Below, one piece after another: positions 120 to 35,618 of a stretch of 35,618 bases of DNA. This DNA comes from a virus: positions 1 to 35,618 of the IMG/VR virus record IMGVR_UViG_3300009103_000091; one strand, 5' to 3'. A program made the position numbers and the translations under genes. Position 1 is the stretch's first letter. Each line of letters starts with the position of its first letter. The notes beneath the pieces are model-generated. The model was not told the origin of the DNA and did no database searches. It was given only the letters and a program-made list of their open reading frames with translations.

Positions 120-3100
120 TGGCAATCAATCTTATGTTAAAATATATGCACATACTACAGAAGTTGTAGAATTTAATAATTCTGGTAATGCAACTTTTGC
201 AGGAAGTGTAACAACAACTTCAGTTATTACACCTTTAGTAACAACAGCAACCAATACTAGTTTATTTTTAAAACCAAATGGATCAGGACATGTATATTTA
301 GGTGATTCAAGTAATGGGACAAATCTTTACCATTATAGTACGGGTAATGATGGTAAATACACAACTTATGATTGGAGTGGCAGTTATTATAGAATTGCAA
401 CAACGGCTAACAGTGGTATTAAAATTGATGATCATCTTTCTGTTTCTGGTGGAAAAATTACTATAACTGAATCGGGGACTAATAATGAACTTCTTATTAT
501 GAATGCATCATCTGATGTTTATGCAGATCAAGTTTGGGCAGACAGTGGCGGTTCTATAAGATTAAGAAGCCATAATGGTGCATTTAAAATATATACTGGT
601 GGGGATGCAAATAGTTTATCAGCAAATGGTTCGACACAGGGTTTTACATTAGATTCTTCACAAGACGCAACTTTTGTTGGTACAATATCAGCTAATAAAA
701 GAGTTTTAGTTACAACTGATGGAACTTATGCTTATGGAATCAATGTTAGTTCTAGTGACCAATCCCACGCTAGAATAAGAATCACTAATACAGGTTCAGG
801 TGGCGAAACCTATTCAATGATGGTTGGAACACATGGCTCTAATAATACTGGGTTTGCAATTAGAAATGAAACAGATTCAACTACACCTTTACAATTTGAT
901 ACAAGCGATAATGCAACTTTTGCAGGAGAAATAACAACTACTGGTAGTAGTATAACAATAGACCCGCCATCTGGTGATGCTGTTTTAAATTTAACTTCTT
1001 CATCACAATCATTAAGAATAGATCAAAATAGTATTAGAACTAGCACAAGCACTAATTTAGCATTTTTAACTAATAGCGTATTAGCACTTACTTTAGATAC
1101 ATCACAAAATGCAACTTTTACAGGGGATGTAAAATTAGAAAGTGGAACTAGTGGTACTACTGATAAAATAATATTTAAAACTACAGATAATTCTGATGTA
1201 AGTAAATTTATAAGAACCAATGCTTACTGGAATGAGTATGGCGCTCATAGAAATGAAGGTCATAAATTTATAGATAGTAATGGTAATGTATTACTTCAGT
1301 TAAATGGTGATAATAGTTCAAGTGGAAATGGCGCATTAAGTGCAACTTTTGCTGGTACAATATCAATGCCAGATAAAATAATGCATACTGGCGATACTGA
1401 TACTTATATGGCATTTGGTACTGACACTATTGTATTAACAACTGCTGGAACAGATAGATTAACTATTAATAATACTTCTGCAACTTTTGCAGGGAATATA
1501 TATATTCCTGTTGCTAAAAAATTATATTTTGGTGGAGGAAGCCATACTTATATTGGCGAAGATATAGACGATAGATTAAGATTCTTTACTGGTGGTGTTG
1601 AGTTTATGAGGTTTACAGAAGACACTACTGATACTATACATTTATTCACAAAAACTTATATTGAAGACAACCTTGATGTAGATGGTGGTGATGTGAATAT
1701 TCAAGCAGGGGCTTTATCTATAACCGCAGACGGCAATAATAAAGTAACTTTTGTGGAAAGTGGTGCTGGAAAAATGACAATAGACGCTAATGACGACATA
1801 GTGTTAGATGCAGGTAGCGACATAGTGTTAGACGCTGGAGGTGATGATGTTAGATTAAAAGTAGGTGGTACTACTTATGGTAAATTTAATAATGCTAGTA
1901 GCAATGTTAATATTTATTCAGAAATACAAGATAAGGATATTATATTTTGGGGTAATGATGGTGGCTCGGCTATAACAGCTTTATCATTAGATATGTCAAA
2001 TGGTGGATCAGCAACCTTTAGAGATGACATTGATTTTGGTGGTAAAATTACACAAACAGGAACAGGTGATAATAAATTTATTGGTAATGTTGGAGTTGGA
2101 GGCGCTCCAACTAATCAATTTTCAATAGTTAGCGGAACGAATGTTAATTTTGAAATGGGTTCTAATTCTGATTCTGTTTTTCTACAATCGTATAATAGAA
2201 GTTCGAGTTCATGGGGACATATAGCTTTTCTTACTAAAAGCGAAACAATGAGATTAACAACTGATGGATATTTGGGGATCGGGGTTACTAGCCCTAGTGC
2301 AACATTGGATGTTCAAGGATCAAGTGCTTTATTTATGACAAGAACTTCAAGTGGTTTAGCAACATATATAGAAAATGATGGGGGTTATGCTGCTCAGTAT
2401 ATGTATCAAATTGGTGGAGGACAAAAAATAAAATTACACACAAATGGTGTTTCATTTTTTAATGGCGGTAATGTTGGAATCGGGACGACTGCTCCTTCAC
2501 AATTACTTCACGTTAATAGTACTACATCAAACGCTACTGGAATTGGGTTGCAAAATAGTCAAAGATATTATGCAGTTCGTTCAAATAATTATTCATTAGT
2601 TTTTAGTGATGAAACTGTTGGTTCAGAAAGAATGCGTATTGACAGTTCTGGCAACTTGGGAATCGGAACTTCTTCGCCTGAAACTAAACTACATGTGGAT
2701 GGAACTACATTAGTAAAAGATAGTGATGGTGTAGGTGATTTATATTTAGGAAATAACGCATCTCATAATTACTTTAGATTCCATACAAATAATTCCAATA
2801 CTTATTTTGACATGAATTGTGGCGACATATATTGGAGGCAAGGAGCATCAACTAGATATTATTTTTATGCTTCAACAGCCAATATGACTATTAATGGTAC
2901 GCTTACCCAAAATTCTGACAGTAGAGTTAAAGAAAACATAGTTGAAATAGGTGATTGTGTGAGTAAGGTTCAAGCTATGCGTGGTGTTTATTACAACAGA
3001 ACTGATTTCAACACCGAAGTTACTAAAGTAGGTGTTATAGCACAAGAGGTTGAAGCTGTTTTACCAGAACTTATATTAGAGTCACCAGAAGATGGACTTA

Positions 3101-3207
3101 AATCCGTGGCTTACGCAGAATTATCAGCGGTATTAATAAATGCAATAAAAGAACAACAAGAGCAAATAGAGAGTTTAAAAACAAGAATACAACAATTAGA
3201 AAACTAA
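1..3207 (+). CDS. Giant tail fibre, C-terminal part with S74 intramolecular chaperone
   Basis: This is the downstream part of the fibre gene that starts at 30025 and crosses the circle join; the ATG at 73 is only an internal methionine. Joined, the protein is about 2,893 residues. The shaft is built from short beta-rich repeats with recurring ATFAG and (V/L)GIGTxSP..LHV motifs. The last ~97 residues are a chaperone of endosialidase (peptidase S74) domain: SDSRVKENI begins at 2914, followed by GVIAQEVEAVLPE and a terminal coiled coil (KEQQEQIESLKTRIQQLE). In this family the domain trimerises the fibre and cuts itself off before the Ser, using a Ser-Lys pair; both residues are present. The fibre probably recognises the host surface. 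The 119 nt at the start duplicate the right end. Confidence 0.93.
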   Translation, partial: GNVTIDGSNGSNGIDLLRPTDSAIMQAISAPDSSTLKIGGGNQSYVKIYAHTTEVVEFNNSGNATFAGSVTTTSVITPLVTTATNTSLFLKPNGSGHVYLGDSSNGTNLYHYSTGNDGKYTTYDWSGSYYRIATTANSGIKIDDHLSVSGGKITITESGTNNELLIMNASSDVYADQVWADSGGSIRLRSHNGAFKIYTGGDANSLSANGSTQGFTLDSSQDATFVGTISANKRVLVTTDGTYAYGINVSSSDQSHARIRITNTGSGGETYSMMVGTHGSNNTGFAIRNETDSTTPLQFDTSDNATFAGEITTTGSSITIDPPSGDAVLNLTSSSQSLRIDQNSIRTSTSTNLAFLTNSVLALTLDTSQNATFTGDVKLESGTSGTTDKIIFKTTDNSDVSKFIRTNAYWNEYGAHRNEGHKFIDSNGNVLLQLNGDNSSSGNGALSATFAGTISMPDKIMHTGDTDTYMAFGTDTIVLTTAGTDRLTINNTSATFAGNIYIPVAKKLYFGGGSHTYIGEDIDDRLRFFTGGVEFMRFTEDTTDTIHLFTKTYIEDNLDVDGGDVNIQAGALSITADGNNKVTFVESGAGKMTIDANDDIVLDAGSDIVLDAGGDDVRLKVGGTTYGKFNNASSNVNIYSEIQDKDIIFWGNDGGSAITALSLDMSNGGSATFRDDIDFGGKITQTGTGDNKFIGNVGVGGAPTNQFSIVSGTNVNFEMGSNSDSVFLQSYNRSSSSWGHIAFLTKSETMRLTTDGYLGIGVTSPSATLDVQGSSALFMTRTSSGLATYIENDGGYAAQYMYQIGGGQKIKLHTNGVSFFNGGNVGIGTTAPSQLLHVNSTTSNATGIGLQNSQRYYAVRSNNYSLVFSDETVGSERMRIDSSGNLGIGTSSPETKLHVDGTTLVKDSDGVGDLYLGNNASHNYFRFHTNNSNTYFDMNCGDIYWRQGASTRYYFYASTANMTINGTLTQNSDSRVKENIVEIGDCVSKVQAMRGVYYNRTDFNTEVTKVGVIAQEVEAVLPELILESPEDGLKSVAYAELSAVLINAIKEQQEQIESLKTRIQQLEN

Positions 3208-3216
3208 TTTTATTTG

Positions 3217-3224
3217 TATATTTG
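3217..3224 (+). promoter_or_regulatory. Bacteroidota-type -7 element TATATTTG
   Basis: TATATTTG followed by TAAAAAA lies 16 bases before the ATG at 3240, in the gap after the fibre gene. It fits the TAnnTTTG consensus for the Bacteroidota primary sigma factor. No convincing -33 TTTG is seen at the expected spacing. Confidence 0.5.
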
Positions 3225-3239
3225 TAAAAAATAAATATT

Positions 3240-3563
3240 ATGGCAAATACATACACATGGGACATTCCAGCTGTGGATTGCAGACCAACAGAAGGTGATT
3301 TATCAACTGTTGTTTATAATGTACATTGGCGTTATAATGGCGTTGATAGTAGTGAAAATACAGGTACAGTTATAGGCACACAAACAGTGGGCGCACCAGA
3401 TCCTGACGATTTTACGCCATTCGATGATTTAACAAAAGATATTGTAGTATCTTGGATTGAACCAGAAATGGATATGGTAGAATTAAAGGCGAATGTGGAT
3501 GCACAAATAAGCGAAAAGGAAAATCCAACTACGGAAACCTTACCACTACCTAGTGAAGAATAA
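3240..3563 (+). CDS. Small conserved phage protein next to the tail fibre
   Basis: A 107-residue protein with no signal peptide or membrane segment. Its first half contains VVYNVHWRYNG and its end reads ANVDAQISEKENPTT followed by a Pro/Glu-rich tail. That pattern recalls a family of small proteins found beside tail-fibre genes in marine phages (I believe the DUF7936 type), from memory rather than a search. It follows the fibre gene after a 32-base gap with its own promoter-like element and precedes the tail tube genes. A fibre-associated or assembly role is a guess from position; the biochemical function is unknown. Confidence 0.7.
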   Translation: MANTYTWDIPAVDCRPTEGDLSTVVYNVHWRYNGVDSSENTGTVIGTQTVGAPDPDDFTPFDDLTKDIVVSWIEPEMDMVELKANVDAQISEKENPTTETLPLPSEE

Positions 3564-3601: not shown

Positions 3602-3844
3602 ATGGGAAACTTAACTGAAGAAGAATTTGAATCATTAAAACAACAGGAAAATCACAGAAATGCAATACATCATGATCTTGGTGCTATGTCAACACAAACT
3701 AAAAGATTGCATAAAGCATTTTTAAAATTAGAAGAAGATGCTGAAAAATTTAGGCAAAAATTAGTTGAAAAATATGGCAAAATAAATGTTAATTTAAAAG
3801 ATGGTTCATTTGAAGTCGTAAAAGAAGAAGAAAATAAAGAGTAA
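3602..3844 (+). CDS. Small coiled-coil protein of unknown function
   Basis: An 80-residue, highly charged protein. Residues ~5-60 are rich in Glu, Lys and Leu and look like a long helix or coiled coil; then comes EKYGKINVNLKDGSF, which looks like a short beta hairpin, and an acidic-basic tail. Proteins with the same helix plus KYG.(I/V)N..(D/S)G.(F/Y) plan occur in many marine phages without assigned function. The stop overlaps the next start by one base (taATG), suggesting coupled translation with the tail tube gene. It may help tail assembly, but the sequence gives no direct evidence. Confidence 0.7.
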   Translation: MGNLTEEEFESLKQQENHRNAIHHDLGAMSTQTKRLHKAFLKLEEDAEKFRQKLVEKYGKINVNLKDGSFEVVKEEENKE

Positions 3845-4314
3845 TGGCACTTATTAATGGGACATCTTTTGGGCTGTTTCATAATGGTAATATTCTGGGA
3901 CATTCTACACAAACTAAATTTACATTAAATGTAGATTTACCTGATGCAACAACAAAAGATTCCGCTGGTTTTAAACAGGTAATTGCTGGTATTAGATCAG
4001 GCACAATTTCAGTAGCTGGTCTAGTAGATTATAGTGATACAGTTAATTTTGAACAATTAGCTGATTTCGTACTCACTAAAACATTAAATGAGTGGGTTTT
4101 CACACAAGAAGCATTTGACGGGTTGACATTAACAGGCACAGGATATGTTACGAATGTTGAGGAAACCGCAGACATGGAAGGTGCTGTTGCCTATGATGTT
4201 GAAATTCAACTATCGGAAATATTTGCTGTACAAGATGATTCTGGTGGTAATCGTTATTGGAATACTACCGATGTTTTTTGGAATAATGCCAACTTTGATT
4301 GGAACTTGGCATAA
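3844..4314 (+). CDS. Tail tube protein, copy 1, with Trp/Asn-rich C-terminal extension
   Basis: 156 residues matching the TP901-1-like major tail protein pattern: an N-terminal GTxxGLFHNGNILGH strand pair, the block DLPDATTKDSAGF..VIAG, then GTISVAGLVDYSD and a late ADMEGAVAYDVEIQL strand pair. Proteins of this family form stacked hexameric rings around the tape measure in non-contractile tails. The neighbouring gene at 4369 is a clear paralogue sharing the same blocks. This copy alone has a C-terminal extension of ~25 residues with four Trp-containing Asn-rich turns (YWN, FWNN, FDWN). The extension could decorate the tube surface or a specialised ring; that is inference. Confidence 0.85.
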   Translation: MALINGTSFGLFHNGNILGHSTQTKFTLNVDLPDATTKDSAGFKQVIAGIRSGTISVAGLVDYSDTVNFEQLADFVLTKTLNEWVFTQEAFDGLTLTGTGYVTNVEETADMEGAVAYDVEIQLSEIFAVQDDSGGNRYWNTTDVFWNNANFDWNLA

Positions 4315-4368: not shown

Positions 4369-4776
4369 ATGGCTACAACATCAGTATTTAATGGGACAAA
4401 TCTACTTTTAAAGATTGAAACTGTTACACTAGGACACACTACAAGTTGTTCATTAACACTATCTAATGATTTACCAGAAGCAACTACTAAAAATTCTAGT
4501 GGTTTTCAGGAAGTTATTGCTGGTGTTATAAGCGGTGAGATATCTTTCGAAGGATTAGTTGATTATAGTGATAGTAGTAATGCGATTGAAATGGCTGATT
4601 TTCTTATAGCTAGAACATCTTTAACTTGCGTATTTGGTACTGCCGAAACTGGCGATGCTGTCTATACTGCTGAAGGGTATTTATCTAGTATAGAGCAATC
4701 AGCGGAAATGGAATCACCTGTAAGTTATTCAGGGTCTATTACATTGACAGGCACTATTACAAAATCCACTAATTAA
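4369..4776 (+). CDS. Tail tube protein, copy 2
   Basis: 135 residues, paralogous to the gene just upstream. Shared blocks include FNGTNLLLKIETVTLGHTT, DLPEATTKNSSGF..VIAGVISG, ISFEGLVDYSD and EMESPVSYSGSITLTG. It lacks the Trp-rich tail of copy 1 and ends in a plain TGTITKSTN. The compact form and its own promoter-like element make it the better candidate for the abundant tube subunit, with copy 1 a minor or decorated variant. That split is inference; the fold assignment is firm from the repeated family pattern and the position just ahead of the chaperone and tape measure genes. Confidence 0.87.
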   Translation: MATTSVFNGTNLLLKIETVTLGHTTSCSLTLSNDLPEATTKNSSGFQEVIAGVISGEISFEGLVDYSDSSNAIEMADFLIARTSLTCVFGTAETGDAVYTAEGYLSSIEQSAEMESPVSYSGSITLTGTITKSTN

Positions 4777-4792
4777 TAATTAATTAAAATTT

Positions 4793-5179
4793 ATGGCAAA
4801 TAGAAAAAGGGGTTATTACTCAATTAAAATGGGTGGTAAAAATCGTACAATGCATTTTTCAATGAATTTTTGGGCGAATTTTACCGATGAATTAAATGTA
4901 CCAATAGAACAAATTGGTGATATATTTCAAAAAGGAATATCATTATCTAGTATAAGAGCGTTGATATATTCAGCGCTTTTAGCTTTTGATCAAGAACAAG
5001 GCAATGATCCTGACTACACTATTTATAAAGTAGGTAGTTGGTTGGATGAATTACCAGCTGAAAAAATAGAAGATATTGTAAATGTTATGATGGAATCTAA
5101 AATTCTTGGCAATGAATTAAATGTTGGTATAAAAAGAAATGTTGAAAAATCTACTAAAAAATCTAGCAAGGGAAAGTAG
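4793..5179 (+). CDS. Tail assembly chaperone, short (G-like) form
   Basis: 128 residues placed between the tail tube genes and the tape measure, where tailed phages encode the G/GT-type chaperones. The body has MNFWANFTDELNVPIEQIGD and a helical region ending in a Lys/Ser-rich tail. The last sense codons read GGA AAG before TAG and overlap the slippery heptamer GGGAAAG. Most ribosomes should stop here and make the short form. In lambda and relatives, the short and long forms coat the tape measure protein and bring tube subunits to it. Function is inferred from position and the frameshift architecture. Confidence 0.85.
   Translation: MANRKRGYYSIKMGGKNRTMHFSMNFWANFTDELNVPIEQIGDIFQKGISLSSIRALIYSALLAFDQEQGNDPDYTIYKVGSWLDELPAEKIEDIVNVMMESKILGNELNVGIKRNVEKSTKKSSKGK
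5170..5176 (+). promoter_or_regulatory. Programmed -1 frameshift site GGGAAAG
   Basis: The heptamer GGGAAAG fits X XXY YYZ in the zero frame (g gga aag) and is followed at once by the TAG stop of the short chaperone form. Slipping back one base gives ggg aaa gta gat and enters an open frame running to 5508. It is the same heptamer used by phage lambda G/T. The -1 frame has a TAG at 5164-5166, so the shift must happen in the short window after that, where this site lies. Confidence 0.88.
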
Positions 5180-5508
5180 ATGCGATCAACTGGGATGATA
5201 TATTAGATTATTATATAGGTCAAATCGGAATTTCGCCTGATAACTTTTGGTCGCAAACTTGGAAAGAAAATCAACTATTAGGCGAAGCACACACAATCAA
5301 ACAAAACTTGCATTGGGAACGCACACGCTATTTAGCGATGATGTTATTTAACACTAATGTAGATAAACGTGCTAACATGATAACGCCTGACAAATTATTT
5401 CCATTACCACAAGACGTGTATTTAGAACGTGGCAAACCAAAAAGTACCAAAGAACAATACGAAAAATTTAAAGCAAAAATAGATAGCATTTCTAAAAAAA
5501 AGAAATAG
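5176..5508 (+). CDS. Tail assembly chaperone, frameshift extension (GT-like form)
   Basis: This frame has no good ATG start of its own near the beginning; an internal TTG at 5308 would cut it in half. Read through the -1 shift, it adds 110 residues to the 128-residue short form, giving a protein of about 238 residues. The extension has INWDDILDYYIGQIGISP, then DNFWSQTWKENQLL and HWERTRYLAMMLFN, and ends in a Lys-rich tail. The FW..T..E and W...R.LA pattern resembles T-domain-like tail assembly chaperones. In lambda the minor fusion product links the chaperone to tube subunits. Translation as a fusion is inferred from the slippery site and the absence of a start. Confidence 0.85.
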   Translation, partial: VDAINWDDILDYYIGQIGISPDNFWSQTWKENQLLGEAHTIKQNLHWERTRYLAMMLFNTNVDKRANMITPDKLFPLPQDVYLERGKPKSTKEQYEKFKAKIDSISKKKK

Positions 5509-5544: not shown

Positions 5545-8046
5545 ATGGCACAACAAAGGTTACAATTAAATTTAACAGCAAACACTTCAGGATTTACAGG
5601 TGCGTTGAATACTGCATCTAGTAAACTTCAAAAATTTGGTGGCAAACTAAAATCTATCGGTTCATCTATGCAAAAATTTGCATTACCACTAGCATTGGCT
5701 GGTGGCGCTAGTGTTAAAATGGCATTGGACTTTGACAAATCAATGACTAAAATAAAAGCATTGGTTGGTATTGCTGGTGGCACTGTTGATGAAATGGGTC
5801 AAAAGGTAAAGCAATTTGCTATTGACACAGGCACATCTTCACGTGAAGCCGCAGATGCATTATACTTTATTACATCAGCTGGTTTGCGCACTAAACTTGC
5901 TTTAGACACTTTAGAAATTTCATTACAAGCAGCAGCAGCTGGACTTGGCGATACAGTTACTATTGCACGATTAAATACTGCTGCTATGGCAGCATATGGT
6001 AAAGAAAACTTAACCACTGCTGCTGCCACTGATGTTTTAGTAGCTGCTGTAAAAGAAGGTCGTTTAGATTCTACACAATTAGGACAAGCAATGGAACAAG
6101 TCGTGCCTATTGCGTCTGAAATGGGAATTGAATTTAATGAATTAGGTGCTGCTTTCGCTGCTGTATCAAGAACTAATTCAAATGCTTCAATAGCTGCTAC
6201 TGGTTTAAGAAGTGTATTAGTATCATTATTAAGCCCTAGCACACAGGCACGTGAGGCGTTAGAGGGTATGGGGTTAGGCGCTGATTTTATAAGACAAAAC
6301 ATAAAAGATAATGGTTTATTAAACACACTACAATTATTGGCAGAAAGGTTTGATGGCAATGCTGATGCCACCACCGCTGTATTTGGCAATGTAAGGGCGT
6401 TATTACCTGTGATGAGTTTAACAGGCAAAAATGCAAAAGAAGTTGAAGGTATTTTTGCAAGAATGGAAAACACGCTTGGCATGACAGCTGGAGCGTTTAA
6501 AATCACAGAACAATCTGCAAGTCATAAATTCAAAAAGTCATTAAATGCCGCAAAAGAAACTTTACAAAGTTTAGGGCAACAATTATTAGTTGCAGTAGTG
6601 CCAGCTGTTCAAAAATTAGTTGGGTTTATACAAAATTTATGGAAACGATTTAAAGAATTAAACCCTATGACACAAAAACTTGTGTTAGCACTAGGTGGTG
6701 TTGCTATTGCATTGCCAACTATAATAACATTAGTGGGTTCATTAGTTGGTTTGTTGGGTACATTACTATCACCTATTGGGTTAGTAGTTGCTGGACTTGC
6801 TGCTGTTGCTTATGTAATTTATAAGAATTGGGGCGAAGTTTTACCAGTTGTTGTTGGTTTATATAATAGATTTGTAGATTTATATAATTCATCCAAATTT
6901 GTTAGGGTTGCTATTGCTGGAATAGGTTCAGTTTTTAAAGGTGTGTTTACAAAAGTAAAAGCACAAATAAGTCAAGTTGTTAATGCGTTTTCTACAATGT
7001 GGAAATTAATAAAAGAATTTTCAGATGAAGGTATTGATGGTGCATTTGGTGATATATTAAAAGAAGGATTTGATAATGCAAAAACTATTGCTTCTGATGC
7101 TGCTAAAGAGGTTGCTAAAGATTTTTCTGATAGTTATTCAAAAGCATTAAGTAATACATTAGAATATAAAACTGCTGAACAAGTTCAAGGAAGTTTAGAT
7201 AATTTAAAAGAGAAATTTAAAGGATGGGGAACAAATATATTGGGCGGTATCTTTTCTGGTGGTGTTGGTAGCACTTCTACTGATGGTGATGGTACTGATG
7301 GTGATGGTACAATAATACCTAGTGGTGGTGATGGTGACGATCCAGTGACTGGGGCTATTGAAGAAAAAATTGGGTTATTAGAAAAATTAGGTTGGACAGC
7401 TGAAGATACTGCAATGTCTATTCAAAATAGTTTTAGTCAATTAGGTATGTCAATAGTTGAGAGTATGGGACTGGCTGGAACTGCATTAGGTGACTTTTTA
7501 AACAACTTTATGAATATGGTATCAGAATATCTAGCTGGTCAATTACAAATGATGTTGGCTGATAATCAAAGAGCCACAACCAAAACATCTACAGATGCAA
7601 TGGCAATGGCTTCTGATTCTGCTTTGACCGCTGTTTTAGGCGCAAATGCAGCAGCGAAAATAGCTGCTTCTACTGGCGCATCTGTTGGTCATGCAGTTGA
7701 AGGCGCTGGGCAAACCGCAAAATCTTTCGGACCACTTGCGGCTTTTGTACTACCAGCACTTATTGCCGCAGGTATTGCAGCAGTAATGAGTGGATTGAAA
7801 AAAGGTAAAACTAAAAAGTTTGCAAAGGGTGGTATTATTAGTACGCCTACAATGGGGCTTATGGGCGAATATCCTGGAGCTAGAAGTAACCCAGAGGTTG
7901 TTGCGCCATTAGATAGATTAAAAGGGCTTATAGGGGCTAATAATAGACCACAACAAGTAAATGTTGGGGGCGCATTTGAATTACGTGGTCAAGATTTAAT
8001 TGTCGCATTAGAGAGGGCAAATACCACAAGGGATAGAATATTGTAA
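5545..8046 (+). CDS. Tail tape measure protein (TP901 family)
   Basis: 833 residues. The N-terminal ~330 residues match the TP901-type core: LDFDKSMTKIKALVGI, TSSREAADALYFITSAGL, EMGIEFNELGAAFAAVS and SIAATGLRSVLVSLLSPS. Residues ~378-430 are strongly hydrophobic with Gly-rich helices, as in tape measures that reach the membrane on DNA entry. An Asp/Gly-rich linker follows (repeats of DGDGT) near residues 575-605. The C-terminus carries AKGGIISTPTMGLMGE and NPEVVAPLDRL, common at tape measure ends. By the family rule of about 1.5 angstrom per residue the tail would be roughly 125 nm. It follows the chaperone pair and precedes the tail tip gene, as in other siphoviruses. Confidence 0.95.
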   Translation: MAQQRLQLNLTANTSGFTGALNTASSKLQKFGGKLKSIGSSMQKFALPLALAGGASVKMALDFDKSMTKIKALVGIAGGTVDEMGQKVKQFAIDTGTSSREAADALYFITSAGLRTKLALDTLEISLQAAAAGLGDTVTIARLNTAAMAAYGKENLTTAAATDVLVAAVKEGRLDSTQLGQAMEQVVPIASEMGIEFNELGAAFAAVSRTNSNASIAATGLRSVLVSLLSPSTQAREALEGMGLGADFIRQNIKDNGLLNTLQLLAERFDGNADATTAVFGNVRALLPVMSLTGKNAKEVEGIFARMENTLGMTAGAFKITEQSASHKFKKSLNAAKETLQSLGQQLLVAVVPAVQKLVGFIQNLWKRFKELNPMTQKLVLALGGVAIALPTIITLVGSLVGLLGTLLSPIGLVVAGLAAVAYVIYKNWGEVLPVVVGLYNRFVDLYNSSKFVRVAIAGIGSVFKGVFTKVKAQISQVVNAFSTMWKLIKEFSDEGIDGAFGDILKEGFDNAKTIASDAAKEVAKDFSDSYSKALSNTLEYKTAEQVQGSLDNLKEKFKGWGTNILGGIFSGGVGSTSTDGDGTDGDGTIIPSGGDGDDPVTGAIEEKIGLLEKLGWTAEDTAMSIQNSFSQLGMSIVESMGLAGTALGDFLNNFMNMVSEYLAGQLQMMLADNQRATTKTSTDAMAMASDSALTAVLGANAAAKIAASTGASVGHAVEGAGQTAKSFGPLAAFVLPALIAAGIAAVMSGLKKGKTKKFAKGGIISTPTMGLMGEYPGARSNPEVVAPLDRLKGLIGANNRPQQVNVGGAFELRGQDLIVALERANTTRDRIL

Positions 8047-30024: not shown

Positions 30025-33000
30025 ATGTCAACTCTATATGGAACTAAAATAAAAGACACTTATGATGGCTTATTAAAAGTAAGTGATAACGTAGGTATAA
30101 CATCAACTAAAAAAATCATTACTGATGGACTTGGCAATGATTCTAGTGTGTATATTTCAGATGAAGATTTTCAAATTTCTACATTCTTTTATGTTGATAT
30201 AAATTCTGGTGATCCTAGCGCTTCTAAAATTGGGTTAGCTACATCAAGCCCTTCATATACACTTCACGTAAATGGTACAGTTGGAATTGTTGGCAACACC
30301 TATGTAACTGCTGGATGGTTAGCGGTACATAGTGGTCAACGAATTTATTTAGAAGGCGCAGCTGGTAAAACTTACATTACTGGTACTGATACAGAAATGT
30401 CTTTATATTCCGCTGGTGGTGAACGCATTCATATTAATGCAACAGGCACAGGGTTAGGCACGTCATCACCATCACAAGTGTTGCACGTAGCTGGTAATGC
30501 TAGAGTTACTGGAAAATATTATGATTCTGGTAATTCAGCTGGTACATCAAATCAAATATTAAGCGCCACTGGTAGTGGTACTGATTGGGTTACTTTAAGC
30601 GAAATTGGTGGTGTTGATGGCAGCGGTACTGCTAACTATATAGCTAAATGGACTGATAGCGATACTATTGGCGATAGTATAATGTCATCTAGTGGCACTA
30701 ACGTAACAATAGCAGGGGATATTACTGTAACAGGAAAACAAGTTTTAGGTTCAGGCGGTACAGCAAATCTATATTTAGGAAATGAAATTGCTGCGGATTC
30801 TTCTGATAAAGGAGCAAGATTTCATTCAAATAATAATGACTTCTACTTTGATTTTCAAGGTGACGCTACTCAAACTTGGACATTAAGAGATTATGATGGT
30901 TCTGGTGGAACACACAACAGATTTATCTTTGATTTTATTGATGGTAATTTTACAGCAAGTGGTGATCTTATTGCCCAAGCAGATTTAGATGTTGGTGGGG
31001 TTGCAACTTTCACAGGTCAAGTGACTATTCCTGAAACGCCAACAGCTGATACTCATGCAGCATCCAAAGGATATGTAGATTCTGAAATTGAAGCCATACC
31101 TAGTGGTCTAAATTTTCAAGGAAATTGGAATGCATCCACTAATAGTCCAACATTAGCAAGTGGCACAGGTACTATTGGATACTTCTATAATGTATCGGTA
31201 GAAGGCACAACAAATTTAGATGGTATTACAGATTGGAAAGTTGGCGATTGGGCGGTGTTTGTTGAAGCTGGTGGTACTGATACATGGAAAAAAATTGACA
31301 ATACTAGTGTGTTATCTGGTGTTGGTTCTACAAATAAATTAGCGTTTTGGTCTAATGATTCTACATTAACATATGACACAGATTTTTATGTTGATGGCGA
31401 TACTATATTTACAACAAATTTAGAAGCTAGTGGTGATATTGTTACAGGTGGATATTTGAGCGGACCGACAGCTGGGCTATCGTTAAGAGTTGGTAGTACA
31501 GAAATAGCAGATTTTAGAACCACAGAAATAAATGTGCCTAGTGTAAAATTAGTTTTAAATAGTTCAATAGATGTTTATAATGGTGGTAGTTATTGGTCAC
31601 AATCTACAAATAGTAGTGGCAAATATGTTTTCAAACAAGGTTCAACACAAAGAGGAATTTGGTCAAGTGGTGAATTAGAATTAACTAATGATTTAATTGT
31701 TGGTGGCACTATTGCAAGTGGGGATATAACGATATCAGATGTCAACCCTAACTTAACATTATCAGATACATCAACCACTAACCTAATACACGAAATAAAA
31801 TCTTCTTCTGATAAATTACAAATATCAGCAGATACAAATAATGTAGTTGGTTCTACAAAAATAGAGTTTTTGATAGATGGTACAGAAGTATTAGATTTAA
31901 GTAGTTCAGTAGCAACTTTTACTGGTATTATTAAACCATCAGGAAATGGCGCAAAAGATTTGGGTGGTTCTAGCAATAGATGGGCTACTGTTTATACTAG
32001 TAATATAAATACTAATACATCATCTACTTTTGGTGGTGATATAGTTTTAGACGATCATGTTGATTCATCCCCTAATTTATATTTTTATAATCAAGAAAAC
32101 AATTATGCTAGATTAACTTTTGATACATCTGAACAATTATTATTTAAAATAGGGACTTCTACTGAATTAACATTAACAGGCACATCTGCAACTTTTTCAG
32201 GAAAAATTTTAGCTGGTAGTGGTGCTACAGCTGCTGCAACTATTAACGCATTTTCAACAGAAGTATCTTCTAATTTATTTTCAGCTTTAAGAATAATATC
32301 ACAACCCGCTGCTTCAAATTATTGGGATATTGGTGCTACTGGCGGGTCATCAACTCTTTTAAATTTTTATCATAATGCTACAACAACACCAAAAATATCA
32401 TTTACCCATCTTGGTGGCGCAACTTTTGCTGGTACTACTCAAGCAACTACTTATTTAGTAAATAGAACTACAGCTGCTGGGATTAATCCTGGAAATACAG
32501 GTATTGCTGATGAAAATAGTGCTGAATTAGGATCAGGATATCTAAATTTATCAAGAAGTGGCACTTCTCAAACACATCAAATAGTATTTGGTAAAAATGG
32601 TGATGAACATAGTTCTATATCCACATCTAGTACTGGTATGATTATTACCGCTGATAGGTTCACAGTGAATACCGATATTTATACTAATAGTGTAACAATA
32701 GATGGTTCGTTATATATAAATGATAATAAAATATCCCATTCTGGTGGGGATATTACTTTAGATGCTGGTGGTGATATTATATTAGATGCTACCAGCAACA
32801 CTGGTATCGGCACTACTTCGCCTGGTTACAAATTAGATGTTTATGATGATAGTACAAATGGTGTTGTGTGTGTAAGAAACGCAGCAAATGGTAGAGATAC
32901 TTTAAGGTCAGAAAATGCAGCTGGAACTAGAACTTTAAATTTTGGTAATGATGGTAGTGGTCATGGTATTTTATTAATTAGAAATAGTTCAGGCACTGTT

Positions 33001-35618
33001 ACTAATTATATAGCTGGAAGTGGTGATTCTTATTTTAATGGTGGTTCGGTGGGAATAGGAACTACTTCGCCTGGTAGTAAATTAGATGTAAATGGCGCTA
33101 CTTATGTAAGAAATGTTATCTATGGGTATGCGGGAGCAGGCAACCAATATGGTGGTTTAAGTTGGGGCGGTACTGATGAAGGGTTTTTATTTTTGAAAGA
33201 TAGTAATGTAACTAAAGTTAATATTAATTCTAATGGAAATTCATATCTCAATGGTGGAAATGTCGGAATAAATACTACTTCGCCACCTACCTTATTATCA
33301 AACACATCAACTAGAATAGCCAATGCAGATGGTTTATCAGTACATCTATCAGGGTTAAACTGGGAAGTTGATAATCAAGGATATATTGCTGCGTTTTCTA
33401 ACACTCAAAGTGCTGGAAGCAATCACAATGCTGGTTTATTAGTTGAATTAGCCAGTACAGATGCAACAGATAAAATACTTGATTTAGAAAGTGGTGGAGT
33501 AAATAGATTCCGTATGCTAGGTACTGGTAATGCAACTTTTGGTGGTAATGTAGATTTAAAAGCTGACAATGTAAATTTAGATTGGCAACACGCAGATGGT
33601 GACCAAGTTTTAAGAATTGAAATTGATAGTGGCAATGATGCTTATTTTTCTGTAACTGGTAATAATGATTTTTATTTTAGAACAAACAGCACAACAGCAT
33701 TAACAATAAATGGTTCACAAAATGCAACTTTTGCTGGTACTGTAACTGGTACAACATTTATTGGTGCGCTAACAGGCACAGCTTCTAATGCTGCATTATT
33801 AGATAACATTGATAGTAACCAATTTGCTAACTTTTACAATTTAACATTTGTAGATTCTTCTGAAATGACTATTAGAAGTACATCATACCCAACACCTGGT
33901 AGATCAACCAACCCTGATCCTGAAGATTATGGCAGAATATTCCATACAGAATTTAAACAAAGATCTTCAATAGGTAGCCCATTAGGTGGCAGTTGCTATT
34001 GGACTGGTCTTATTAGTATTGCGCCTTATTCTGGTAGTTGGTACACTACGCAAATTTGTTTGGGTGCTGATGGTACAGATGACGATTTATATATTAGACG
34101 TGGCACAGGTACTACGTGGGGTGATTGGACACAAATCATTACAGCTGCATCTGCCACATTTACAAGTGATATAACTTTAGATGCTACCAGCAACATTGGC
34201 ATAGGCACTACTTCGCCTAATGACAAATTAGAAGTAGCTGATTCGTCAGCACCAAATATTAGAATGTACAGAAGTGGCACAGGTCAAGTGTGGCAACACA
34301 CAATAGATTCTAGTGGGCGTTATATGTTGCGAGAAGCAGCTAGTTCAGGTGGAACATTATATACAAGATTTCAAGTTGACGATACAGGTGAAGTTGCGTT
34401 ACCTTCTTATGGTTCTGGTACATTTACAGGCACTGCCACCCAACGATTAGCTGTTGATTCTAGTGGTAATATTATAGAACTAGCAATAGGTAGTGGTGCT
34501 GTTGATGGTAGTGGTACTGCTAACTATATAACTAAATGGATTGATGGCGAAACTATTGGTGATAGCCAAATATATGATGATGCAACTAATGTTTATATCA
34601 ATCAAGGTAGTTCAGATTATTTTGGTGCAGCAACAACTGTACAAATATCTTCTGGTGCTAGTGATAAAGATTTTGGCGTTAGAGCAAGAAATATGTATTT
34701 GTATAGTTATGCAAATGGCAGTAGTGCTAATTTAATTTTTGGTGATGGTAGTGCAAATTTTGGATTATTTGCTGATGATACTAATTTTGACATATATAAT
34801 TATGGGCTTTCTAGTAATGCAATTACAATATTAAAAAGTAATTCTAATGTAGGTATTGGAACTACTTCGCCAGGTGCTAAACTTCATGTTGTACAAGCTA
34901 GTTATCCAGCATTCAAAGCTGAAAGAAAAGGCGGTTCTGCCGCAACAGAAGGTTGGACACAAATAGGACATAGTCAGTTAGGTTATTCTGGTAGTACAGG
35001 TGCAGATTCTTATATTATTTCTCAACATGGTTTTGGATTTGCAGTTAATGAAGGCACTAACGCAATGACCATTACCGATACTGGTGATGTCGGGATCGGG
35101 ACGGCTTCACCTACACAGAAACTACATTCATATATTGCAACAGGTGATATTTATAATTTAATAGAAACGGGTAGTAATGTAAGTACAACGGGTTCAAGAT
35201 ATAAATCTTCAGCACAAGAATATTTTGCAGGTTTACAATATAGTGTTAATGCTGCTTACCAAATTTATGATATTACTAATGCCGCTGCAAGAATGACTAT
35301 AGACAGTTCTGGCTACGTCGGGATCGGGACAACCACTCCTGGTCAAAAATTAGAAGTTCAAGGAACAATACTTGTTAACAATGAGATTCAGTTTACTGAT
35401 AGTAATATGCGTATTTATCGAAGCTCAAATGATATGATTTTCCGAACAGGAGGCACTAATAGAGTAACTATTGCTAGTGGTGGTGATGCAACTTTTGCTG
35501 GTAATGTAACAATAGATGGTTCTAATGGGTCTAATGGTATAGATTTATTAAGACCCACTGATAGTGCGATTATGCAAGCAATATCAGCACCAGATAGTAG
35601 TACTTTAAAAATAGGTGG
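30025..35618 (+). CDS. Giant tail fibre, N-terminal part (continues at 1-3207 across the circle)
   Basis: The frame from ATG at 30025 is open to the end of the window (1,864 codons including the 119-base overlap) and continues in the same frame at the left end, giving about 2,893 residues. The start (MSTLYGTKIKDTYDGLLKVS) is likely the attachment region to the tail. Then come repeats with ATF(A/S)G and VGIGTTSPG.KL.V units, an ADTHAASKGYVD motif near residue 350, a block FQGNWNA with WKVGDWAVF, and two copies of GVDGSGTANYIxKW-type units (near 30613 and 34503). The repeats resemble fibre shafts in other marine phages. The frame has its own promoter-like element. Confidence 0.93.
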   Translation, partial: MSTLYGTKIKDTYDGLLKVSDNVGITSTKKIITDGLGNDSSVYISDEDFQISTFFYVDINSGDPSASKIGLATSSPSYTLHVNGTVGIVGNTYVTAGWLAVHSGQRIYLEGAAGKTYITGTDTEMSLYSAGGERIHINATGTGLGTSSPSQVLHVAGNARVTGKYYDSGNSAGTSNQILSATGSGTDWVTLSEIGGVDGSGTANYIAKWTDSDTIGDSIMSSSGTNVTIAGDITVTGKQVLGSGGTANLYLGNEIAADSSDKGARFHSNNNDFYFDFQGDATQTWTLRDYDGSGGTHNRFIFDFIDGNFTASGDLIAQADLDVGGVATFTGQVTIPETPTADTHAASKGYVDSEIEAIPSGLNFQGNWNASTNSPTLASGTGTIGYFYNVSVEGTTNLDGITDWKVGDWAVFVEAGGTDTWKKIDNTSVLSGVGSTNKLAFWSNDSTLTYDTDFYVDGDTIFTTNLEASGDIVTGGYLSGPTAGLSLRVGSTEIADFRTTEINVPSVKLVLNSSIDVYNGGSYWSQSTNSSGKYVFKQGSTQRGIWSSGELELTNDLIVGGTIASGDITISDVNPNLTLSDTSTTNLIHEIKSSSDKLQISADTNNVVGSTKIEFLIDGTEVLDLSSSVATFTGIIKPSGNGAKDLGGSSNRWATVYTSNINTNTSSTFGGDIVLDDHVDSSPNLYFYNQENNYARLTFDTSEQLLFKIGTSTELTLTGTSATFSGKILAGSGATAAATINAFSTEVSSNLFSALRIISQPAASNYWDIGATGGSSTLLNFYHNATTTPKISFTHLGGATFAGTTQATTYLVNRTTAAGINPGNTGIADENSAELGSGYLNLSRSGTSQTHQIVFGKNGDEHSSISTSSTGMIITADRFTVNTDIYTNSVTIDGSLYINDNKISHSGGDITLDAGGDIILDATSNTGIGTTSPGYKLDVYDDSTNGVVCVRNAANGRDTLRSENAAGTRTLNFGNDGSGHGILLIRNSSGTVTNYIAGSGDSYFNGGSVGIGTTSPGSKLDVNGATYVRNVIYGYAGAGNQYGGLSWGGTDEGFLFLKDSNVTKVNINSNGNSYLNGGNVGINTTSPPTLLSNTSTRIANADGLSVHLSGLNWEVDNQGYIAAFSNTQSAGSNHNAGLLVELASTDATDKILDLESGGVNRFRMLGTGNATFGGNVDLKADNVNLDWQHADGDQVLRIEIDSGNDAYFSVTGNNDFYFRTNSTTALTINGSQNATFAGTVTGTTFIGALTGTASNAALLDNIDSNQFANFYNLTFVDSSEMTIRSTSYPTPGRSTNPDPEDYGRIFHTEFKQRSSIGSPLGGSCYWTGLISIAPYSGSWYTTQICLGADGTDDDLYIRRGTGTTWGDWTQIITAASATFTSDITLDATSNIGIGTTSPNDKLEVADSSAPNIRMYRSGTGQVWQHTIDSSGRYMLREAASSGGTLYTRFQVDDTGEVALPSYGSGTFTGTATQRLAVDSSGNIIELAIGSGAVDGSGTANYITKWIDGETIGDSQIYDDATNVYINQGSSDYFGAATTVQISSGASDKDFGVRARNMYLYSYANGSSANLIFGDGSANFGLFADDTNFDIYNYGLSSNAITILKSNSNVGIGTTSPGAKLHVVQASYPAFKAERKGGSAATEGWTQIGHSQLGYSGSTGADSYIISQHGFGFAVNEGTNAMTITDTGDVGIGTASPTQKLHSYIATGDIYNLIETGSNVSTTGSRYKSSAQEYFAGLQYSVNAAYQIYDITNAAARMTIDSSGYVGIGTTTPGQKLEVQGTILVNNEIQFTDSNMRIYRSSNDMIFRTGGTNRVTIASGGDATFAGNVTIDGSNGSNGIDLLRPTDSAIMQAISAPDSSTLKIG
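35500..35618. repeat. 119-bp terminal direct repeat (right copy)
   Basis: Identical to 1-119, in the same reading frame of the fibre gene. Removing one copy gives a circle of 35,499 bp. Confidence 0.93.

Follow-up and report, generated by a model that had tools for sequence, protein, structure and literature searches.

A probable programmed -1 ribosomal frameshift, followed by a covarying stem, at the putative tail assembly chaperone gene of a marine phage and its environmental relatives

The window, i.e. the whole stretch of DNA analysed here, is a marine phage record of 35,618 bases with 32% GC. It is probably a complete genome since a 119-base terminal direct repeat is found at its ends. 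A large ORF (30025-35616, at least 1864 codons) runs past the end of the record. The overlapping pair of ORFs considered here, named G and T after their lambda counterparts, lies among the tail genes:

3844-4314, + strand: first tail tube paralogue (PF06199, E 7.4e-10; phrog_1407, E 3.8e-17)
4369-4776, + strand: second tail tube paralogue, directly upstream of G (PF06199, E 6.7e-10; phrog_1407, E 1.4e-21)
4793-5179, + strand: ORF1, putative G-like tail assembly chaperone (128 aa, 14.6 kDa; phrog_2115 match)
5170-5176, + strand: slippery heptamer G_GGA_AAG, its X_XXY_YYZ phase read directly
5177-5179, + strand: 0-frame stop codon TAG, adjoining the 3' end of the heptamer
5176-5508, + strand: putative T-like domain in the -1 frame, beginning GTA GAT GCG (alignment of 34 relatives; phrog_16333; weak Phage_TAC_6)
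5545-8046, + strand: tape measure protein, immediately following the T frame (phrog_1533, E 2.5e-66; PF10145, E 2.3e-26)

The overlapping G and T ORFs thus sit between the tail tube genes and the tape measure gene, which is the V-G-T-H order of phage lambda. The two tail tube paralogues stand in tandem and are 45% identical, and both copies are found in unchanged order in most relatives checked. This suggests that two related subunits make up the tube or cap it.

The last codons of ORF1 are AAG (5168-5170), GGA and AAG, followed at once by the TAG. A first-pass annotation, made from the letters of the window, had noted the GGGAAAG heptamer in the correct phase, the stop directly behind it and an open -1 frame lacking a good start, and all of these are borne out. 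The -1 frame is devoid of stops from 5167 to 5508 (113 codons, the closing stop ending at 5508); none of ATG, GTG and TTG occurs in it before 5308, 131 nt past the ORF1 stop. Initiation at 5308 would fall downstream of the W-D...DYYIGQ block that is conserved in the alignment of 34 relatives. Within the 35.6-kb window, the heptamer is found at this one place on the + strand and nowhere on the - strand. The predicted G-T fusion is 238 residues long, exactly the size that had been put at about 238, and has a mass of 27.6 kDa versus 14.6 kDa for G.

Relatives of the junction were gathered by scans of IMG/VR, which yielded 95 distinct junctions from this gene family: a first set of 70 (53 with GGGAAAG and 17 with A-runs) and 25 from later scans (23 and 2, respectively). 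A comparison of the heptamer among related phages had been proposed in the first-pass annotation. Its outcome is uniform, since each of the 95 junctions combines a T in the -1 frame with a slippery heptamer in phase, namely GGGAAAG in 76 and an A-run in 19. In all 53 GGGAAAG junctions of the first set, which share kinship so that their count overstates the number of independent events, the base preceding GGA is G, the Gly codon is GGA and the slip Lys codon is AAG. That G closes seven different codons (AAG, GCG, GTG, GAG, TCG, CAG and ACG) for seven amino acids, against a background of 16% G at ORF1 third positions; AAG makes up 18% of the Lys codons of these ORFs. The constancy of G before GGA across seven codons, together with the invariant AAG, therefore argues for selection on the bases and not on the residues. 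It is mainly this conservation in relatives that excludes a chance occurrence of the heptamer. A sequencing error or a decayed gene was considered as well and rejected, the same arrangement being found in dozens of contigs.

The first-pass annotation had named as contrary evidence a second part that relatives encode as a gene of its own, whose start is conserved and which lacks a slippery site. Such a case was sought in the window's family and none was found: no start for T is conserved in the window or in any of the family relatives checked, and the first start codons of the T frame are scattered, mostly within the conserved T domain. It is thus very improbable that T is a separate gene using a non-standard start, or one reached by reinitiation after the TAG, with the overlap and heptamer being incidental. 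An ATG (5180-5182) does directly follow the TAG, but it lies in the ORF1 frame and would yield a peptide of only 8 codons. Rare start codons are compatible with the sequence taken alone, and the T frame of the Cellulophaga phages phi10:1 and phi12:1 has ATGs within the overlap. Against this, the heptamer is held at the level of bases while the codons flanking it vary.

Judging from anatomy, synteny and relatives, the locus is very probably a tail assembly chaperone gene that carries a cassette for programmed -1 ribosomal frameshifting, which agrees with the lambda-type frameshift and GT-like product proposed initially. The majority of ribosomes would translate ORF1 and halt at the TAG after GGGAAAG, giving the 128-residue G-like protein. 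In a minority, the Gly and Lys tRNAs would shift from GGA-AAG to GGG-AAA by re-pairing one base back, and these slipped ribosomes would continue through GTA GAT GCG to make the 238-residue GT-like protein. With respect to possible upstream stimulators, inspection by eye of the 24-mers preceding the heptamer revealed no common GGAGG-type, Shine-Dalgarno-like motif.

The chaperone identity of G and T is deduced mainly from synteny and the predicted frameshift, with weak support from the fold. G matches phrog_2115 ('tail protein') in 34 of the 34 members and retains 33 invariant columns across them. T belongs to phrog_16333, which is common to the T parts of Flavobacterium phage 11b and Cellulophaga phi12:1; the T of 11b also matches phrog_441 (tail assembly chaperone) at positions 123-174 (E 2e-4). 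Phage_TAC_6 gives weak matches in 13 of the 34 members, the best with E 0.033. The model of G (pLDDT 79) ranks the HK97 tail assembly chaperone 2OB9 first among 704 solved chains aligned, but the score (Z 3.2 over 78 residues, 8% identity) is suggestive only and too weak to stand alone. No matches were obtained for G or T in PDB sequence profile searches or NCBIfam, and Foldseek returned none that was significant; hhalign of the window profiles against single 11b proteins gave low probability. A tblastn search of named phage records was negative for T and for the tail tube protein and found a single faint match for G, in Cellulophaga phi10:1.

Likeness to lambda lies in the arrangement. The heptamer is the G_GGA_AAG of lambda G/GT in identical phase, the site is placed between the tail tube and tape measure genes, and a short G is accompanied by a longer GT. 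In contrast, a sequence relationship between the window G/T and those of lambda is undetectable: no link was seen by sequence or profile, and the window proteins belong to different PHROGs. In lambda, G and GT are made at a ratio of 30:1 that is crucial for tail assembly; G attaches to the tape measure, and T to the tail shaft subunit (PMC5009743). By analogy, we infer a lambda-like chaperone role for the window's pair, in which G, free or fused in GT, would coat the tape measure protein while the T part would recruit the tail tube subunit.

The stop adjoins the heptamer in 44 of the 53 GGGAAAG junctions and lies 4 or 9 codons later in the remaining ones; in more distant relatives it is found 1 or 5 codons downstream. 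Between heptamer and stop, lambda has five sense codons and the window none. The immediate TAG had been singled out as notable. It is common in this group but not fixed, and it has precedents in Rous sarcoma virus gag-pol and barley yellow dwarf virus, where the heptamer is likewise followed at once by a stop (PMC4373837), although these are eukaryotic RNA viruses and retroviruses with unrelated genes and stimulators. In a tree from which the junction sequence had been left out, the distance to the stop changed about six times. Because of these changes, and of the 1- or 5-codon distances in distant relatives, the immediate stop is notable but neither unique nor required.

It is possible, though doubtful, that the adjacent stop is itself regulatory, release factor competing with slippage while the stop occupies the A site, so that the G:GT ratio would be sensitive to release factor. 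This would be a refinement of programmed frameshifting and is compatible with it. The prevalence of the adjacent stop is in keeping with such a role; moreover, a stop so placed reduces -1 slippage at the HIV site in E. coli, in an RF2-responsive manner (PMC4373837). The repeated changes of distance speak against it, and an early 0-frame stop is expected anyway as soon as frame 0 is no longer needed.

Downstream of the heptamer the analysis adds an element that had no place in the first-pass annotation, namely a stem:

5181-5189, + strand: 5' arm of the stem, TGCGATCAA, 4 nt after the heptamer (type II covariation; synonymous-shuffle p 0.003)
5247-5255, + strand: 3' arm of the stem, TTGGTCGCA (helix enumeration, covariation, synonymous shuffle)

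Segments of 70 nt that begin 6 nt behind the heptamer are more stably folded than their shuffles (mean z -2.12, sd 1.01, n=28), whereas control segments have a mean z of -0.11. The window's own downstream stretch is modestly better than shuffles (z -1.64). The stem was found by helix enumeration, and it occurs in three registers, in each of which the 5' arm begins 4-6 nt after the heptamer. The folds considered were nested ones; some known cassettes also have a pseudoknot that joins the loop to sequence further down. Known -1 stimulators have a spacer of roughly this length of 4-6 nt. Most members pair an arm that starts at +7 from the heptamer with one ending at +56, the +7 arms reading GCCAACTT, CCCGACTT, CCCGGCT, CCCAGCT and CCCAACT. 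A second group pairs an arm at +6 with one at +59 (GCCGACT/AGTCGGC, GCCAGCT/AGCTGGC, GCCAACC/GGTTGGC, ACCGACT/AGTCGGT and GCCGATT/AATCGGC). In the window's clade, the arm at +5 to +7 has its partner further downstream, ending at +79 to +82: TGCGATCAA/TTGGTCGCA in the window, GCGACCA/TGGTCGC in L030 and GCGTCCA/TGGACGC in L093.

In the type I register, 94.9% of the cells are paired and the covariation score is 0.372 versus 0.200 +/- 0.022 in shuffled alignments, a value reached in 0 of 500. The +6/+59 register is 98.8% paired, with changes on both sides in 5 of its 7 pairs. The type II register, to which the window belongs, is 91.8% paired and scores 0.354 versus 0.164 shuffled, over seven distinct rows in some of which two of its pairs fail. 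When the partner is slid by 1-3 columns, the pairing is lost in all three registers. RNAalifold found no helix in the mixed-register alignment because the registers differ among members, and no Rfam family matched at the junction.

The 3' arms lie within conserved coding sequence (the GQVGI and FW motifs), and the z of the window itself is modest, so that the stem might be looked upon as a by-product, devoid of function, of protein coding and AT-rich codon usage. We consider this unlikely. When codons are shuffled synonymously with the T protein kept, the mean best-stem score is 11.6 versus 19.6 observed, with p<0.05 in 44 of 51 sequences (the stem of L083, L089 and L091 is not significant in this test); compensatory changes couple unrelated residues, for example GAC/GTC to AGC/GCT; and in each register the 5' arm begins at the same short distance of 4-6 nt from the heptamer. 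Covariation and the synonymous controls support the stem as a conserved structure. Its likely action in the proposed frameshift is to stall the ribosome, which would raise or set the slip rate.

A broader picture, towards which we lean slightly, is that a three-part cassette of heptamer, 4-6 nt spacer and stem sets tail-chaperone frameshifting in a widespread group of marine phages. The 5' arm would keep its position, whereas its pairing partner would have moved between at least two downstream locations, near +56/+59 and near +79/+82; the slip sequence would vary as well, as would the place of the stop. Frameshift output would then be preserved even as each component of its signal is exchanged, in hosts believed to rely little on Shine-Dalgarno-type stimulators.

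Turnover of the slip site itself is seen in the window's family, where it alternates between GGGAAAG and A-runs, with at least two changes on the tree mentioned above. Most distant relatives (L215-L258 and L263-L341, the Flavobacterium 11b-like and phi10:1-like loci) carry a nearly invariant A9 run (A_AAA_AAA) as slip site; downstream structure is present in the phi10:1-like loci (z -1.47) and absent from the 11b-like ones (z +0.25). Flavobacterium phage 11b and its IMG/VR relatives have a homologous T (phrog_16333), the same tail-gene order and the -1 frame, but differ from the window by their A9 slip site, by a stop several codons later and by the missing structure, and the stem is therefore not universal. 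The junctions L203-L211 carry A_AAA_AAC followed by an in-phase C_CCA_AAG, i.e. two candidate slip heptamers in tandem.

In Cellulophaga phi10:1 and phi12:1, T is in the +1/-2 frame. Among L259-L262 the run is A9 in phi12:1 and phi18:1, A10 in the near-identical phi17:1 and A8 in phi10:1. T is in the +1/-2 frame in phi12:1 and phi18:1, whereas the extra A of phi17:1 puts it in -1; hence run length decides the frame of T in these phages. The difference in the run is either a homopolymer sequencing error or a true variation in run length.

Runs of 8 or more A, as in the A-run relatives, are typical of polymerase slippage, and a single A of run length separates near-identical Cellulophaga phages. 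These observations bring to mind a fusion mRNA arising by transcriptional rather than ribosomal slippage, an explanation we hold to be extremely improbable for the window. Its GGGAAAG has runs of three only, its neighbours retain the tRNA re-pairing pattern GGA AAG and not a homopolymer, and both the phase and the downstream stem match ribosomal -1 slippage.

The first-pass annotation took the heptamer to show conservation of the exact site across very distant hosts. That very distant hosts share it holds true, GGGAAAG being used by lambda and also, as G_GGA_AAG, at the G-T tail chaperone gene of HCTV-5, a haloarchaeal virus whose host belongs to another, very distant domain; its spread across distant hosts was thereby already on record (PMC5009743). 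The shared heptamer does not amount to evidence for an exact site retained since the split from lambda, given the swaps of slip site and its use in HCTV-5. Because the slip site turns over within the window's family, our reading is that the exact match with lambda reflects repeated choice of a good slip site and not common inheritance.

Tail-chaperone frameshifting, a well known mechanism, and the GGGAAAG site were described before. What is new is the covarying stem that a large environmental phage group carries behind GGGAAAG; for comparison, lambda was examined by a single fold only. A literature search, from which subscription papers were mostly excluded, found no report on the window's phage group. 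These siphoviruses, which are probably Bacteroidota-infecting, would add a large environmental group to the phages with -1-frameshift tail chaperones. As slip site, stop position and stem register vary naturally among them, the determinants of frameshift rate become directly testable in these hosts.

A Bacteroidota host, as assumed from the start, is likely, although not proved, and is well supported by matches of Cellulophaga and Flavobacterium type for portal and primase. All of the eight best portal matches are Cellulophaga phages. The best primase matches are a Riemerella-named phage and an unassigned faecal phage, followed by Cellulophaga and Flavobacterium phages. Among GTDB genome contigs there was one match, a phage-like 35.8-kb contig (L158, PBPJ01000031.1) of the window's phage group in a MAG labelled Candidatus Woesearchaeota. 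This contig is probably mis-binned and was set aside as host evidence.

The cassette also gives gene callers a reason to join ORF pairs that are misannotated or missed. In Cellulophaga phi10:1 (L159, about 2986-3360) the G gene is absent from the annotation, and in Flavobacterium 11b (L161:12200-12526) T is annotated from an internal start.
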